Shown in pieces: positions 41,529 through 48,231 of a stretch of DNA of 64,000 nucleotides. This stretch comes from Raineya orbicola (lineage in GTDB: Bacteria > Bacteroidota > Bacteroidia > Cytophagales > Thermonemataceae), in the NCBI RefSeq assembly GCF_002843425.1, contig NZ_NKXO01000002.1:1-64000 (forward strand), read 5' to 3'. A model generated the notes under the pieces. That model was not told the origin of the DNA. It worked only from the letters and a program-made list of their open reading frames with translations, and did not search any database. Every line of letters starts with the position of its first letter. Within the stretch, counting starts at the first letter, position 1. The translations under genes and the position numbers were made by a program.

Positions 41529-43757
41529 TTAATAATTAAATGTCAGTCCTATTCCAAAACCCATATCGCTGTCGTAATGTGTTCTGAACCCTAAGTTTTT
41601 ACTTGCGATATAATTTAGTCCAAACATATATTCTTTGTCTGTATTTACCATAAATGAGGCTCTAAACCTTTTTGAAAGCGGAATGTCTTCACGTCTTAAT
41701 TGTACTCTTACATTTCCATCTTGATAGACTTCTGTTTGTAAAATTATAAGCATTGGCAGAGTATATGCAACCCCTAAACTAAACTGTGTCCGATTGTCTT
41801 TGGTATTAGTCTGCCCAAAAAGATTTTTTTCTGGTGTTTCGTGTTTTCTGTATCGCCAATCAAAACCTATAAATGGCATTAGCCATTGATTTCTGCCTAT
41901 GTATCGTCCTATGTGGGTTTCTGTTTCGTAACCGTGTCTGTCGTTATATCCCAAACGCCATTCTGTGCCAAAACTCCAACGGGTATTTTGCAACATAGTC
42001 ATTCCGTCATTACCATTGGTCGCAAAGTCGTTTTGGAACATAAAGTGCAGTTCGTTGCTTTCTCTTTGCAGCTTTCTATAAGCCCATTTTTTATTGGGTA
42101 AATAAGGATTAGGTGCTTGGTTTTCTGTGCTAAACACACGGTTCATTCCTGCCATCATATGGTAGAGAATATGACAGTGAAAAAACCAATCGCCTTCTAA
42201 ATTGGCTTCAAACTCTATGACATTGGTTTCCATTGGCATGATGTCCAATACATTTTTGAGTGGTGCATAATCGCCTTGCCCGTTGATAACCCTAAAATCG
42301 TGTCCGTGCAAGTGCATCGGGTGTCGCATCATTGAGTTGTTGTAAAGCGTAATCCTTACAATTTCTCCTTTTTTGATTAGAATTTTATCGGTTTCTGCAA
42401 GTACTCGGTTGTCCATACTCCACACATAGCGGTTCATATTTCCTGTCAATTCAAACCTTAATTCTCTGACAGGGGCATTTTCTGACAAAGTGGTTTTGGT
42501 AGGTGATTTGAGCATTGCGTAGTTTAATGTAACAATGTCATTGCTTGGCATTGTATGATTGCTATGGTCTGAATGTTGAGATGATTTTGGTTTATTTTCT
42601 CCCGTAATTTCAGGATACATTACTGTGTTCATATCCATTTGTTGCAGGCTCATATTCATACCCATATCTTTCATATCACCATTCATTTTCATCATATCGT
42701 TCATCATCTTCATTCCTTCAAAATATTTCAGTTTTGGTAATGGACTTGCCAACTGTTTGATGCCTGAACCTATATAAATTGATGCTGATTTGGTGCGGTC
42801 TTCGGGGGTTACCAAAAGTTCGTAAGAAGTATTTTCTGCGGGAATGGTAACTATTACGTCATAGGTTTCTGAAACCCCGATAATCAGTCTATCTACCACA
42901 ACAGGCTCCACATCATTACCATCATTGGCAACAACGGTCATTTTTCCTCCTGCGTACGTGAGCCAAAAATAAGACGAAGCACCACCGTTGGAAATTCGCA
43001 GCCGTACTTTATCACCTGCTTTGAATTGAGAGAGTTGGCTTTCAGATGTTCCATTAATCAGAAATTTATCGTAATACACATCGCTCACATCCATTGCTAG
43101 CATTCGTTTCCATTCGTTTGTGAGTTTGGTTTTGAAATGACCTGCTTTTATGGCTTCTCCGTAACTCTGAACAGTATTTTTCTTTATAGCAAACCAATCA
43201 TTAGCATTGTGCAACATACGGTGAATGTTGTCAGGGTTATAGTCTGTCCATTCACTTAAAATAATGGGAACGGTTGGCAAATCATCAATCCCTTTTCTGA
43301 AAGTGGGGTCGTCTGCCCTTTTGAGCAAAATCATTGAGCCATACATTCCTATTTGTTCTTGCAATCCGCTATGGCTGTGATACCAGTGTGTTCCGTTTTG
43401 AATTATCGGAAAACGGTAAATGTGCGTGGTATTGGGTTTAATCGGCATTTGTGTTAAATACGGCACGCCATCTTCTTTATTGGGTAGATACAAACCGTGC
43501 CAATGCAAAGATGTACTTTCTTTGAGCCTATTGTGTACGTGAATTTCAGCCGTGTCACCTTCTGTAAATGTAAGTGTTGGCATAGGAATTTGTCCGTTTA
43601 CGGCAATGGCTCGCTTGTTTTTTCCTGTAAAATTAACGATGGTGTCTTTTATGTAAAGGTCGTATCGCACCACTTTTTGGGCGAATACGACTTGTGTTGC
43701 CAATAGTAGGAACACTATCGGCAACAATTTTTTATAAATATTTTTTTGATTAACCAT
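41529..43757 (-). CDS. Multicopper oxidase fused to a CopB-like outer-membrane barrel
   Basis: A 742-residue protein with signal peptide (1-26), a three-cupredoxin multicopper oxidase and a C-terminal beta-barrel. Copper ligands are visible in LHWHGLYLPNKEDG, THWYHSHSGLQEQ, HPMHLHGHDFRV and HCHILYHMMAGM (about residue 527). A Met-rich segment (about 345-380, with MKMMNDMMKMNGDMKDMGMN) is placed as in CopA-type oxidases, which oxidise Cu(I) to Cu(II). The last 190 residues (from about 550) contain strands resembling copper-resistance protein B. The gene is the last of the copper operon, 24 bases after the HMA/MauE protein. It probably detoxifies copper at the outer membrane. Confidence 0.9.
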   Translation of the reverse strand: MVNQKNIYKKLLPIVFLLLATQVVFAQKVVRYDLYIKDTIVNFTGKNKRAIAVNGQIPMPTLTFTEGDTAEIHVHNRLKESTSLHWHGLYLPNKEDGVPYLTQMPIKPNTTHIYRFPIIQNGTHWYHSHSGLQEQIGMYGSMILLKRADDPTFRKGIDDLPTVPIILSEWTDYNPDNIHRMLHNANDWFAIKKNTVQSYGEAIKAGHFKTKLTNEWKRMLAMDVSDVYYDKFLINGTSESQLSQFKAGDKVRLRISNGGASSYFWLTYAGGKMTVVANDGNDVEPVVVDRLIIGVSETYDVIVTIPAENTSYELLVTPEDRTKSASIYIGSGIKQLASPLPKLKYFEGMKMMNDMMKMNGDMKDMGMNMSLQQMDMNTVMYPEITGENKPKSSQHSDHSNHTMPSNDIVTLNYAMLKSPTKTTLSENAPVRELRFELTGNMNRYVWSMDNRVLAETDKILIKKGEIVRITLYNNSMMRHPMHLHGHDFRVINGQGDYAPLKNVLDIMPMETNVIEFEANLEGDWFFHCHILYHMMAGMNRVFSTENQAPNPYLPNKKWAYRKLQRESNELHFMFQNDFATNGNDGMTMLQNTRWSFGTEWRLGYNDRHGYETETHIGRYIGRNQWLMPFIGFDWRYRKHETPEKNLFGQTNTKDNRTQFSLGVAYTLPMLIILQTEVYQDGNVRVQLRREDIPLSKRFRASFMVNTDKEYMFGLNYIASKNLGFRTHYDSDMGFGIGLTFNY

Positions 43758-43781
43758 TTTATAAATTTTATAAATTTCATT

Positions 43782-44495
43782 CTAAATCAGGTTTAAAAGC
43801 ATCCAAGCACTCATTGCTATCATTAGGGCATCTTCAATAATGGTAACGGTACTCATTGGCAAGTTGAACACGGCACCCAAACAGGCACATTGTATTTTCT
43901 TTTTGTTCAATACCGATTGTAATACCCCGATGATGCTGATGCTCATTACAATAAATGTTACACTATTAGTAACAAGTGGATTAAAATTTACTAAAAAAGC
44001 AATGCCCAAAGCCAATTCTGTGAAAGCATAGATATAAGCCCAAGCGGGTAACCGCTTTGCTACAACATCATACATTACATAGCTTTCGGCAAAGCCTTTC
44101 AGATTGAGCATTTTGAAAAACGAAAATACCAAAAAGAAACCCGCCATAAAGTGTCGCATCCACTGCATTGTATCAAACCTTTCGTTGGTAAACTGTACTA
44201 ATGTCGTTACCAATGAGATATAAAAAAATATCAACAAGATTGGCTTGTAGGTGGCTAGCCAACCTTTGGTTTGTTCTGCCAGTTCGCTGTGATGTTGTGC
44301 AGAAATCTGATACTTTTCAGGCAAGGCTTTTTGCAACCTATCCAATGGAATGTGTTTATCCATTGTGATTGTGGCTGAATTTTCGTCTTTTGAAACTTCA
44401 ACGCTTACCACATTTTCCACCATCAACAACGATGATTTAACTTTTGCTTCACAGCTTGAACAGGTCATTCCTGTTATTTGATATGTATGTACCAT
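43782..44495 (-). CDS. Heavy-metal-associated domain + MauE/DoxX-like membrane protein
   Basis: A 237-residue protein. The N terminus is an HMA domain with Cys12 and Cys15 in GMTCSSCEAK, a copper-binding CxxC. It is followed by four membrane segments of the MauE/DoxX redox type (from about residue 88), containing the end CACLGAVFNLPMSTVTIIED, where the vicinal cysteines resemble a redox pair. It should carry copper or reducing equivalents across the inner membrane for the oxidase downstream (24-base gap). This fusion of metal-binding head and MauE-like core is common in Bacteroidota copper clusters. The 93-base gap to the AraC gene leaves room for regulation. Confidence 0.8.
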   Translation of the reverse strand: MVHTYQITGMTCSSCEAKVKSSLLMVENVVSVEVSKDENSATITMDKHIPLDRLQKALPEKYQISAQHHSELAEQTKGWLATYKPILLIFFYISLVTTLVQFTNERFDTMQWMRHFMAGFFLVFSFFKMLNLKGFAESYVMYDVVAKRLPAWAYIYAFTELALGIAFLVNFNPLVTNSVTFIVMSISIIGVLQSVLNKKKIQCACLGAVFNLPMSTVTIIEDALMIAMSAWMLLNLI

Positions 44496-44588
44496 AATCT
44501 TATATTTTAAAGGTTAAAAACTATGGCACAAAGTTCCGAAGCTATTTGCTTATCGTTGTTGTGTTATTTTGGGTTTGAGTTGTAACAT

Positions 44589-45149
44589 TTATAAGTCTTC
44601 AATTTGCCTTCGTTTTTTGTCTTTCAATTGCTTGTAATGCGAAGGAGAAAAACCTGTTACCTTTTTAAACTGATTGCTCAAATACGCCACACTGCTGTAA
44701 TTCATCTGAAAAGCAATTTCACTCAGAGTTAATTCATCATACAGAAGCAACTCTTTTACCTTTTCTATTTTCTGGTTGATAAAATATTTCTCAATGGTTG
44801 TATCTTCTACTTCCGAAAACAAATTGCTAAGAGATGAATAATCCTGTGCCAGATGTTTTGACAAATAATCGGACAGATTGGAATTGAGCTGAGCGTTTTG
44901 TTGATGCACCAATTCAATTATCAAAGTTTTGATTTTATCAATCAATCGGCTTTTCTTGTCATCAATCAGTTCAAAACCAAAGCTTTTCAGGTGTTCTGCA
45001 ATCTCGCTTTTTTGGTGAGCCGAAATTGGTTCAATAGTTTCTACTTCGCCCAAATCAACTGCAAGTAGTTGAAGTCCGAGTTTTTCCAACTCAGACTTCA
45101 CTACCATTTTGCAGCGACTACACACCATATTTTTGATGTATAGTTTCAC
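44589..45149 (-). CDS. AraC-family regulator with N-terminal metal-binding-like domain
   Basis: A 186-residue regulator. The N-terminal 75 residues look like a metallochaperone-type ferredoxin fold, beginning MKLYIKNMVCSRCKMVV with Cys10 and Cys13; the C-terminal part is a pair of AraC helix-turn-helix motifs (about 100-180), seen in KVKELLLYDELTLSEIAFQM and SVAYLSNQFKKVTGFSPSHY. I infer that metal binding by the CxxC head controls the operon. It starts with GTG immediately after the TAA of the DUF3347 gene (TAAGTG), so the two are translationally linked. It is shorter than usual AraC proteins because the sugar-binding cupin is replaced by this head. Confidence 0.85.
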   Translation of the reverse strand: MKLYIKNMVCSRCKMVVKSELEKLGLQLLAVDLGEVETIEPISAHQKSEIAEHLKSFGFELIDDKKSRLIDKIKTLIIELVHQQNAQLNSNLSDYLSKHLAQDYSSLSNLFSEVEDTTIEKYFINQKIEKVKELLLYDELTLSEIAFQMNYSSVAYLSNQFKKVTGFSPSHYKQLKDKKRRQIEDL

Positions 45150-46013
45150 TTATTCTATTTTTTCAACCGTTATACCACAAGAAAGCATTTGAGAACCGTA
45201 GTAAGGGTTTTTAATGGCATTTTCTTTGCTCAACCAATTAGCACCTTTACCATTGTTTGCCATTGGGCAATGTTGGTAATAGGTAGGCGTTTCTTGTTTA
45301 GAAGCTTTCAAGAGTTGATACATATTATCTGATAAAGTATTGAAATGGTCACGCTGATGTCCCACATCTTTGGTTTCTTCAATGTGTTCGGTATCAAATA
45401 CTAAATCTTTCATTACCTTCATCCAAACGATATGCTCTTCATTAGAAAGTTTGTTCATCTGCACGGCATTAAGAGCATTGAGTAGTTCTTTTGCTTTGGC
45501 AGAAGCCAAATTGCCATCAGATTTTACCAAAGCGTCTTTTAATGCGAAGTAGTTTTCAAAAACTGATTTGAGTTGATTTACTACTTGCTTTGTTTCATTT
45601 GACTTGTTTGTTGCTCCTTCGTGATTGTACTTAGAATGGTCGTCAATCGTTTCTACTTTTACCATTTCTGATTTTTTCACACGGTCGTATTGACAACATT
45701 CTGGAAGTTTAGCATACACATCATCAGGAGCAAGAAATTGGTCGCTATCGTACCCTGCCAAAGCAATACGCTTTAAGATTTCGACTTGACTGGTCTTGCT
45801 TGGGTCGTAGGTTAAAGTAGCCATTTTGGTATCTTTGTTCCAATCTACCTGTGCTACTTTCTTAATGTTTCCTGCTTTTTCAATGGTCGTTTCACACATA
45901 CCACAGTTACCGTAAATTTTTACGCTTTCGGTTTTAGCGTTTTTGATTTGAGCGTTACACGCTGTGAACGATAGCAATAGCGTAATTGCCATCAATATTT
46001 TTATTGATTTCAT
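45150..46013 (-). CDS. DUF3347 lipoprotein with heavy-metal-associated domain
   Basis: A 287-residue lipoprotein. The lipobox SFTAC gives Cys19. Next is an HMA domain (about 28-98) with Cys37 and Cys40 in NCGMCETTIEKAG, and then a DUF3347 helical domain (about 145-225), a helical bundle found beside copper efflux and CusB-like proteins, with a C-terminal HCPMANNGKGANWLS segment holding further His/Cys/Met. It should bind copper in the periplasm on the inner or outer membrane. It lies between the Cys-rich small gene (94-base gap) and the AraC-type regulator (no gap). Lipoprotein status is strongly supported by the short hydrophobic core and the Cys. Confidence 0.87.
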   Translation of the reverse strand: MKSIKILMAITLLLSFTACNAQIKNAKTESVKIYGNCGMCETTIEKAGNIKKVAQVDWNKDTKMATLTYDPSKTSQVEILKRIALAGYDSDQFLAPDDVYAKLPECCQYDRVKKSEMVKVETIDDHSKYNHEGATNKSNETKQVVNQLKSVFENYFALKDALVKSDGNLASAKAKELLNALNAVQMNKLSNEEHIVWMKVMKDLVFDTEHIEETKDVGHQRDHFNTLSDNMYQLLKASKQETPTYYQHCPMANNGKGANWLSKENAIKNPYYGSQMLSCGITVEKIE

Positions 46014-46107
46014 ATTTTTAAAAATTAAATGTTTAACGAATAATAGAATTTGTAAGCAAGAAAAATGCTTTCAATTAGTCAGACCTATTGCTGTCAAGGT
46101 AATAAAA

Positions 46108-46479
46108 TTAGCCTATTTTGGGCGGTTGCCAAATTGAAAGAAAGCCTGATGAATAATAGGTGTCTTGATAATAAAAGTTAGGCTTATTAACGATTATTGT
46201 AATTCCTGAAAAACCATCAAAAAAAGGAATTGTAAAGTTTGTACAATTAGTCGGACAATGACAAGCTGGGTTTCCGCATTTCCCATCACAATCTTTACTG
46301 TGTTTACCACATTGTCCTTTTTCTGTGTCGCAACAATCTTTCTTTTCCGTTTCCGTATTAGATTTTTTGGTGCAAGTATTTTCTAAGTTTTCAGATTTTG
46401 ACCCACAAGCATAAGTATCTGTTGGAGTCAAAGAGAAACCAATCAGGGTTAATAATGCTATGTAAAAAAATCTTGTCAT
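46108..46479 (-). CDS. Small secreted cysteine-rich protein, first gene of the copper operon
   Basis: A 123-residue protein with a signal peptide (1-24, ending YACG) and a mature part unusually rich in Cys and His: a C-C-D-x(6)-C-G-K-H-x(4)-C-x(3)-C-G-x(3)-C-H-C-P pattern between about 49 and 77. I do not recognise a named family. Its place as first gene of a copper operon makes a copper-binding or copper-buffering role likely (inference). The C-terminal part has aromatic strands and ends WQPPKIG. The gene is preceded by a TACCTTTG element 15 bases upstream of its ATG. Similar proteins appear in Bacteroidota next to copper genes, as far as I recall. Confidence 0.7.
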   Translation of the reverse strand: MTRFFYIALLTLIGFSLTPTDTYACGSKSENLENTCTKKSNTETEKKDCCDTEKGQCGKHSKDCDGKCGNPACHCPTNCTNFTIPFFDGFSGITIIVNKPNFYYQDTYYSSGFLSIWQPPKIG

Positions 46480-46622: not shown

Positions 46623-46749
46623 AACGGTTCGGGGCTTTGCGATGGTGGGGCAATCGAAGCACAAATCTTCAATTTTGCACTAAAGTTCAACCGAAGAACA
46701 ACCGTTGAACTTTGCAGTTTCGCCCCACTATTGCAAAACCCTTGTTAGC
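46623..46749. repeat. attC-like long palindrome (copy C)
   Basis: A 127-base imperfect palindrome. Outer arms TTTGCGATGGTGGGGC (46636-46651) and GCCCCACTATTGCAAA (46722-46737) pair at 14 of 16 positions; an inner perfect hairpin AAAGTTCAAC / GTTGAACTTT lies at 46682-46713. Its right edge is GTTAGC (46744-46749). It shares CAATCGAAGCAC with copy B. It lies between the copper operon and the SMR gene. Confidence 0.7.
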
Positions 46750-46759
46750 GGCTGGCATT

Positions 46760-47089
46760 TTAGTGTGCTGCTGATTTTGAGAAAAAATTTATTACGATAA
46801 CTCCTGTCACAATTAAAATAATTCCAATAATTGCTGGAATGTCTAACGATTGCTTAAATACCACAACCGAAATTATAGCTGTCAAGACAATTCCTAAACC
46901 ACCCCAAATTGCATAAGCTATTCCCAAAGGAATGGATTTTAAAGCTTGCGATAAAAAGAAAAAGGAAGCAATATATGCCACAATTGTTATCGCTGTTGGC
47001 AATAATTTTGAAAAACCGTCTGATGCTTTCATAAAGCTCGAACCTACAACTTCAAGTACGATTGCTAATGATAAAAATAAATATTTCAT
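46760..47089 (-). CDS. Small multidrug resistance (SMR) efflux transporter
   Basis: A 109-residue inner-membrane protein with four transmembrane helices (about 2-22, 28-50, 56-78, 84-104), of the SMR (EmrE/QacE/SugE) family. The family marks are the start MKYLFLSLAIVLEVVGSSFM with the membrane-embedded Glu13 that couples proton and substrate movement, and SIPLGIAYAIWGGLGIVLTA with its G-I-A-Y-A-x-W-x-G pattern. It should export quaternary ammonium or similar cations. It lies 11 bases from palindrome C and 71 bases downstream of the Crp/Fnr gene. A perfect palindrome and a TATCTTTG element lie just upstream, so it likely has its own activator-controlled promoter. Confidence 0.92.
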   Translation of the reverse strand: MKYLFLSLAIVLEVVGSSFMKASDGFSKLLPTAITIVAYIASFFFLSQALKSIPLGIAYAIWGGLGIVLTAIISVVVFKQSLDIPAIIGIILIVTGVIVINFFSKSAAH

Positions 47090-47111
47090 TGTTCTTTTGT
47101 TTTAACTGATG

Positions 47112-47119
47112 CAAAGATA
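47112..47119 (-). promoter_or_regulatory. SMR gene -7 promoter element
   Basis: On the minus strand: TATCTTTG, an exact match to TAnnTTTG, 22 bases before the ATG at 47089. There is no TTTG at the -33 distance, as expected for a promoter that depends on an activator bound at the palindrome at 47140-47157. Confidence 0.6.
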
Positions 47120-47139
47120 CAAAAATTAAAAAGTGCTTT

Positions 47140-47157
47140 TTTTGACAAATGTCAAAA
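47140..47157. promoter_or_regulatory. Crp/Fnr-type operator (perfect 18-bp palindrome)
   Basis: TTTTGACA-AA-TGTCAAAA is a perfect palindrome of the TTGAC-N4-GTCAA form, close to the Fnr consensus. Its centre is about 41.5 bases upstream of the transcription start predicted from the TATCTTTG element, the classic class II activator position. It lies 3 bases past the stop of the Crp/Fnr gene. Confidence 0.65.
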
Positions 47158-47160
47158 TCG

Positions 47161-47721
47161 TTATTTCTTTCTAATACGGCTCAATGTTTCTTGCGAAATA
47201 CCCAAATAAGAAGCAATATGTCCTAAAGAAATTCTTTGCAAAGCTTCGGGTTGGTTTTTCAAAAGCCAATGATAACGCTGTTCTGCGGTATGTGTTTGTA
47301 ATAAAAAAGAACGTTCCTCTAAAATTTTGCAATATTCTTCTGCCATTTTTCTACCAATCGTATTCATTTCCTGCGATGATTTGTAGAAACTTTCAAGGTC
47401 ATTGCTTGAGATATAATATAAAGTGGTGTCTTCTAAAAACTGAATGTTTTCAATTGAAGGTTGGCTAAAAAATAATGGCATTACTGAACCTAAAATTCCG
47501 CTCTCAAAACCAAACCAAACATTAATTTCTCTTTCATTGATATTATAAAACGAACGAACAAGCCCTTTTTCAATTACGAATAAACTTGAAACAATTTGTC
47601 CTTCTTTGAGCAAAAAATCGCCTTTTTGTTTTATCAGACTTTTAATTTTTTCGTTAAGTTCTGTTTCGATTTCAGAGGTCAGATTTCCGTATTTTTTAAG
47701 TTGTTTTATGAGAGGGTTCAT
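47161..47721 (-). CDS. Crp/Fnr-family transcriptional regulator
   Basis: A 186-residue regulator with a cyclic-nucleotide-binding-like fold (about 20-120; KGDFLLKEGQIVSSLFVIEKG is the start) and a helix-turn-helix at the C terminus, RISLGHIASYLGISQETLSR. The recognition helix E-T-L-S-R matches the E-x-x-S-R contacts that E. coli Fnr makes with TTGA. No Fe-S-binding cysteines are seen, so it is not an oxygen sensor of the Fnr kind. It lies upstream of the SMR gene in the same direction and next to a matching palindrome, so it likely regulates that gene (inference). A canonical promoter (47770-47805) precedes it. Confidence 0.88.
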   Translation of the reverse strand: MNPLIKQLKKYGNLTSEIETELNEKIKSLIKQKGDFLLKEGQIVSSLFVIEKGLVRSFYNINEREINVWFGFESGILGSVMPLFFSQPSIENIQFLEDTTLYYISSNDLESFYKSSQEMNTIGRKMAEEYCKILEERSFLLQTHTAEQRYHWLLKNQPEALQRISLGHIASYLGISQETLSRIRKK

Positions 47722-47769
47722 TCTTTGTACGGTGTTGGTTTATGCTTGCCGCTAACTTATAAATATACG

Positions 47770-47805
47770 CAAATATACAAGTATATTTTTGAAATTCCAA
47801 AAAAA
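47770..47805 (-). promoter_or_regulatory. Promoter of the Crp/Fnr gene
   Basis: On the minus strand: TTTTTTTG (47805-47798), a 20-base spacer, TATATTTG (47777-47770), a canonical Bacteroidota promoter. Between it and the ATG lies GCTAAC (47751-47756), the right-hand edge of the module, so the promoter is outside the module edge. Confidence 0.65.
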
Positions 47806-48231
47806 CGAAAAAATTTTCTTTATTCAAAATCAAAATAGTTATACAAAAAAGAAACACATAGATGAAACTTTTTCAAACAGGCAGGGCAATATTTAGACAA
47901 TTCAATTACGCAGTGCTATTTTTGTGTAGCGGACTGTCGTTTTGAAGTCTTATTATCCTAAAAGTTCTTGGATAAATCGAATATCTGCTCTTATTTTGGC
48001 AAAAACTTTCTGTATCTAATTTAATTAAAAATATCTTTTTAAATAAGCCAGATAAGAAAATGAACCCTTAACGTATTAAGATAAATAGCTGCTTGCTAAT
48101 TACTTTGGGGTTAACATACCGAGAAAATTGCTTGAAAAGTGAGATACATTCCAAAAATACTTAGAAATTTGGGTCAACGAAAACTTTTGCAATAATACTT
48201 TCGTTAATTAGAAGCTGAAAAAACAATTTTT
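47806..48231. other. Gene-free stretch at the right edge of the accessory island
   Basis: About 425 bases with no convincing gene, no tRNA-like fold and no strong hairpin. The only short frame, 47862-47945 (27 codons), has no similarity I can recognise. AT-rich and irregular; it may be a remnant left by the island's arrival. Confidence 0.5.

Follow-up and report, generated by a model that had tools for sequence, protein, structure and literature searches.

The locus lies in a window of 64,000 nt, the whole stretch of Raineya orbicola DNA that was analysed. Read along the minus strand, the regulator gene (47721–47161) comes first, followed by the palindrome and then the SMR efflux gene (47089–46760), with an intergenic gap of 71 nt between the two genes. 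The SMR gene (46760–47089, minus strand) encodes an EmrE/Qac-like protein of 109 aa, which is a full-length member of PF00893 (1.4e-32, domain over residues 1–93). NCBIfam models for the named Qac/EmrE equivalogs match this protein below the curated cut-off, the best one giving 123.8 bits versus 162. A block next to the cassette described below (41529–46479) encodes a multicopper-oxidase-like protein, HMA and MauE/HMA proteins, a DUF3347 protein and an AraC-type regulator; the content of this block is suggestive of metal resistance.

The regulator gene (47161–47721, minus strand) encodes a Crp/Fnr-type protein of 186 aa with an N-terminal cyclic-nucleotide-binding-type domain (PF00027, 4.1e-10, 39.9 bits with a cut-off of 27.5). 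The putative winged-helix DNA-binding domain in the C-terminal part has no Pfam HTH match, and the Q-E-T-L-S-R motif of the recognition helix S-Q-E-T-L-S-R was read directly from the sequence. The nearest solved structure is 3dn7, a protein with no assigned function, and it aligns with the regulator over its full length, the recognition helix included. The NCBIfam Fnr model scores 19.7 bits on the regulator versus a cut-off of 228, and an Fnr oxygen sensor proper is ruled out, since a protein with a single cysteine cannot form the [4Fe-4S] cluster of Fnr, for which four are needed. The sequence-only reading had described the system as Fnr-like, which holds for the DNA site with its FNR-type half-sites and fails for the protein with its one cysteine and no cluster. 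The regulator appears to share the fold and helix register of E. coli CRP; unlike CRP, it is not global, and the regions aligned by eye to the cAMP contacts Glu72 and Arg82 are not kept, so that the cAMP-binding residues of CRP are, as judged by eye, presumably absent.

The operator palindrome begins 3 nt past the stop codon of the regulator gene and occupies positions 47140–47157, exactly where it had been placed earlier. It reads TTTTGACA-TT-TGTCAAAA on the minus strand, with the core TTGAC-N4-GTCAA, and TTTTGACA-AA-TGTCAAAA on the forward strand. Both 8-nt arms are perfect and surround an AA/TT centre, hence 16 of the 18 positions are symmetric. The 3.07-Mb assembly contains this exact copy only. 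The −7 box of the SMR promoter, TATCTTTG, is located at 47112–47119 (minus strand); between the operator centre at 47148.5 and the beginning of the TTTG in this box there are 33 nt. According to a flavobacterial start-site map, TAnnTTTG spans −12 to −5 (PMC9723704), which puts the predicted +1 at 47107 and the operator centre at −41.5. Neither TTTG nor TTG is present at the −33 position. The promoter thus displays class II architecture, with an operator at −41.5 and no −33 element, +1 being predicted from the −7 box. The chance of a perfect 8-2-8 repeat within a 71-nt intergenic stretch of the same composition is P ~0.018. Such repeats are not rare in the AT-rich 64-kb window (three found, 2.1 expected); therefore, the palindrome alone is weak evidence, and the comparative data decide.

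Eight loci with the regulator were found. The whole unit recurs at 99% identity in four genomes (Chryseobacterium, Kaistella, Amniculibacterium and Flavobacterium) and at about 79% nucleotide identity in two others (UBA1952 and Leaf201). The operator arms are invariant in 7/7 copies, and in the two copies of about 79% identity the centre and flanks differ. Three copies have TATCTTTG as their −7 box, and TTTCTTTG takes its place in four, namely two near-identical and both diverged ones. This distribution points to TATCTTTG as the derived form: the box described earlier as ideal is indeed present at 47119–47112, but it is not ancestral. Under a strict cut-off, 396 genomes from the whole phylum gave only one further close regulator, and for this reason the general test was carried out on a looser, class-wide sample.

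The general test set consisted of 106 regulator genes (28–100% identity) from a class-wide Bacteroidia sample and earlier searches; being relatives of one protein, they represent a part of the Crp/Fnr family. A broader form of the motif from the sequence-only reading, TTGAYNNNNRTCAA with one mismatch allowed, was located within −6 to +60 of the gene's own stop codon in 42 of the 106, while about 1 was expected in shuffles, 1 was obtained with a control pattern and 0–2 at three offsets. Palindromes counted without any prescribed sequence are also enriched near the regulator stop, with even spacing. Further specificity classes were spotted by eye, and the class patterns other than TTGAY were written after seeing the data. 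With these patterns, an operator is present at −4 to +28 of the own stop codon in 61/106 genes, versus 0–2 of about 105 at five offset windows. The 61 operators cluster at about −4 and at +4/+5 relative to the stop. In the former cluster (22/61), the stop codon lies inside the operator half-site, as TGA in TTGA, TAA in TTAAC or TAG in TAGAC.

In 50 of these 61 loci, a −7 box has its TTTG beginning exactly 33 nt (40 loci) or 34 nt (10 loci) away from the operator centre, and at other distances TTTG occurs 0–3 times per position. The distance from operator to TTTG played no part in choosing the operator patterns. Taken together with the mapped position of the −7 box, 33 nt places the operator centre at −41.5. 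The class II position claimed for the SMR promoter holds relative to its predicted +1 and is shared by about 50 other Bacteroidia regulators; the missing −33 box is a common feature as well, no TTTG being found at that site across the operator-bearing homologues. The next gene is co-oriented in all 59 callable operator-bearing cases, versus 36/44 without an operator. With the patterns frozen, operators were found in 6 of 20 genes of a fresh set, a smaller share than among the 106, with five of the six at exactly 33 nt. A genome-wide count of TTGAYNNNNRTCAA-N26/27-TTTG gave 203 occurrences in 119 genomes versus 50 for the reversed control.

The class patterns detected no operator in 45 of the 106 homologues, some of which show palindromes of other sequence. 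The rule was not seen in GC-rich genomes or in genomes without the −7 box, and operators upstream of the regulator gene, as in autoregulation, were not enriched. Two tandem operators follow the stop codon of some regulators (L021, L022, L086, L023 and L092 are listed, the last three as examples); to judge from this arrangement, the binding may be cooperative.

The recognition helices and operators fall into classes that correspond almost one-to-one. Helices of the x-E-T(-L-S-R) class are found with TTGAY operators (27 cases), R-E-T(-L-S-R) with GTGAC (6), x-V with TTWAC (7) and x-R-H with AGGAC (5), and the x-E-S class has mainly TTAMC operators (7); no off-diagonal case occurs among these classes. 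Arg180 of CRP predicts GTGA for an R-E helix, and FNR predicts TTGA for an x-E helix. The homologues with R-E-T-L-S-R and GTGA half-sites agree with the former, and the pairing of E-T-L-S-R with TTGA proposed for the present locus agrees with the latter, its FNR-type half-sites matching the recognition helix. A Mantel test of helix versus operator gave r 0.60, with 0/5000 permutations as high; limited to pairs of <40% identity, which only partly removes shared ancestry, it gave r 0.59. This correlation is the main evidence suggesting that the adjacent regulators bind these sites. Two other SMR genes (L051 and L066) follow Crp/Fnr genes of the x-V helix class with TTWAC-type operators. Hence, the SMR–Crp/Fnr pairing arose more than once or switched specificity.

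Similar to FNR/FixK-type class II promoters, the SMR promoter has a TTGAY-N4-RTCAA operator with a predicted centre at −41.5, and the regulator has a predicted E-x-x-S-R recognition helix. It differs from them in the lack of the four-cysteine cluster (one cysteine here), in the Bacteroidota −7 box standing in place of the −10 element, and in having a single adjacent proposed target with the operator at the regulator's own stop codon.

The regulator, operator and SMR gene are contained in a 1.13-kb unit (46623–47756, minus strand) with G^TT at both ends, and this block is the one common to the four other genomes at 99% identity. In every near-identical copy, both G^TT junctions are the same to the base, and the flanks differ in every genome. 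The end of the unit is formed by an attC-like site (46623–46757, minus strand). In a circular form, with this end connected to the start, the strand would fold into one long imperfect hairpin. The start GTTAGCGGCAAGC (47744–47756, minus strand) is complementary to GCCAGCCGCTAAC at the other end, an inverted pair that can also be written as GTTAGCGGC at the start and GCCGCTAAC in front of the terminal site. Related sites with identities of up to 94% are located after other genes in Empedobacter p1681-tetX, on a Chryseobacterium plasmid, in Empedobacter brevis (lnu(H), with a site 73% similar to the present one) and at two places in the own genome. Of the features of an integron cassette, a discrete unit, a G^TT crossover at both ends and an attC-type hairpin after the genes are present, and the unit appears to be mobile as an integron-type cassette. 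The proposal of a self-contained mobile module is borne out in that the three elements move as one unit with exact ends; movement as an integron-type cassette was beyond the reach of the sequence-only reading. An empty insertion site was sought in relatives, where the flanks are too diverged or repeated to reveal one.

Class 1 integron cassettes with Qac/EmrE SMR genes (e.g., qacE) also combine an SMR gene with an attC-type site in a mobile cassette. Unlike them, the present cassette adds a regulator and its own promoter and operator, and its site and candidate integrase are of the Bacteroidota type. It resembles cassettes described in Riemerella anatipestifer for aph(3')-IVb, lnu(H) and blaRATA, which have a short 5′ leader and an attC-like 3′ end of about 140 bp and insert without homology; they carry single resistance genes, and no regulator is described for them (PMC13148043).

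The cassette is preceded by an attI-like segment (47756–47801, minus strand), which includes the promoter-like sequence TTTG-N20-TATATTTG (47798–47801 and 47770–47777) reading into the regulator gene and presumably acting as its promoter. A second perfect 8-2-8 inverted repeat of the window, AAATATACAAGTATATTT at 47771–47788, overlaps this promoter-like sequence. Contig C6 of the same genome has a tyrosine integrase gene (L196 2246–3322), and the sequence following that gene shows 77% identity to the left flank of the cassette. Farther upstream, positions 47914–47985 (minus strand) contain the decayed 3′ end of a tyrosine integrase gene, reading DIRFIQELLG, two stops and DFKTTVRYTKIA; it was matched by tblastn with the intact relative P0001 as the query (E 4e-07). 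Contig C6 carries an intact integrase, whose own first cassette encodes an AIPR-domain protein (274–2031). The C6 integrase scores 195.6 bits on TIGR02249 (cut-off 265), is without the IntI-specific insertion and has the C-terminal SP-D tail in common with IntI. A canonical IntI was not found in the own genome, and with it no associated integrase with the IntI-specific additional domain that would be expected for an integron gene cassette. Relatives of the C6 integrase (E ≤ 1e-45) are encoded in 64/119 Bacteroidia genomes, and a G^TT-type junction comes after several of them, though not after every one. An integrase family of the C6 type may move the cassette.

The two genes of the integron-type cassette are probably a local class II activator that responds to a ligand and the SMR gene as the only target of this activator. 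This reading is based on the palindrome, its geometry, the co-orientation of the genes, the helix–operator correlation, the cassette ends and the transfer between genomes, from which we infer binding, activation rather than repression, and the existence of an inducer. The regulator would bind, with its ligand and as a dimer, the TTGAC-N4-GTCAA operator right after its own gene. At −41.5 the dimer would fill the place of the missing −33 element, touch RNA polymerase at the −7 box and so turn on SMR efflux. Transcription of the regulator gene itself would be separate, probably starting at the attI-like promoter sequence in this genome and in neighbouring cassettes elsewhere. The inducer is probably an SMR substrate or a related stress signal.

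The same site might instead be occupied by a local repressor that keeps RNA polymerase blocked and comes off in response to a drug, as with QacR/TetR. We consider this unlikely. The overlap of the site with the promoter region would suit a repressor, and many efflux genes are locally repressed, e.g., by TetR genes adjoining qacH; a repressor site, however, need not sit at a fixed −41.5 in front of a promoter without a −33 box, and both features hold across the specificity classes. The position −41.5 is the established one for class II activators. The qacH genes on Gram-positive plasmids, which likewise lie beside a local regulator on mobile DNA, have a repressor of the TetR family there, as opposed to the Crp/Fnr-type protein that is proposed to act as an activator here.

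Like activation, spread as an integron-type cassette has a competitor: the unit could have been distributed by homologous recombination of its flanks or by an ordinary transposon, which would fit a resident genome with no canonical IntI found and with a nearest integrase lacking the IntI-specific insertion. This route is quite unlikely given flanks that differ in every genome, ends identical to the base at G^TT and the presence of the same attC-like site after other genes; cassettes of this type in Riemerella also insert without homology (PMC13148043).

Two readings of the inverted repeat that dispense with a regulator were rejected. That the repeat serves the regulator gene as a transcription terminator, or its mRNA as a 3′ hairpin, is highly improbable: the repeat directly follows the stop codon and can fold (−5.6 kcal/mol), but a fold of this stability is nothing out of the ordinary (z −1.55), no U-run comes after it, a terminator scan found none, the hairpin is broken in L024 with TTGA/TCAA kept, and the repeat sequence tracks the regulator helix at a fixed distance to the −7 box of the next gene. 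Chance formation in AT-rich DNA, for which the number of repeats in the window leaves room, is hardly credible once the copies are compared, the arms being conserved in diverged copies and the same architecture recurring in dozens of homologues.

Beyond the cassette-borne activator, we favour, with somewhat more confidence than doubt, a general rule according to which local Crp/Fnr regulators of Bacteroidia have their operator at or in their own stop codon, exactly at −41.5 of the next gene, with a readable helix–operator code, the unit described here being a cassette of the Bacteroidota integron type whose integrase is without the IntI-specific domain. In a limited search of the open-licence literature, neither the stop-codon operator rule nor Crp/Fnr–SMR modules in Bacteroidota were found to have been described before. 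The rule makes specificity predictable, since a Bacteroidia Crp/Fnr protein would lead to its operator, target gene and transcription start. Hundreds of "Crp/Fnr family regulator" annotations would become testable pairs, and the matched recognition helices and operators make up a dataset for the Crp/Fnr recognition code. If the rule is true, the stop-codon operator at −41.5 ties a regulator and its target together with the operator, so that all three can be transferred as a unit. A resistance-type gene that travels with its own proposed activator and promoter can do without a promoter where it inserts. In addition, a candidate integrase family is indicated for the homology-independent cassette insertion reported in Riemerella.

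In Kaistella (L006 1964–2314), the cassette follows a Cro/C1-type HTH gene (PF13443). The aph(3')-IVb cassette of R. anatipestifer inserts beside an HTH gene called hthR (PMC13148043), and the two may share an insertion site type. Upstream of tet(X3) in L227 (NZ_CP104735.1, 53–2151) and similar Acinetobacter plasmids, a truncated tyrosine recombinase is encoded, which is 47% identical to the C6 integrase over the C-terminal part and has the SP-D tail. A junction reading CTTG^TTATGTGCC also precedes tet(X3), and downstream of the gene there is half of an attC-like site, the left one. By these marks, tet(X3) resembles a Bacteroidota cassette of the present type that was brought into Acinetobacter, where it lies beside ISVsa3.
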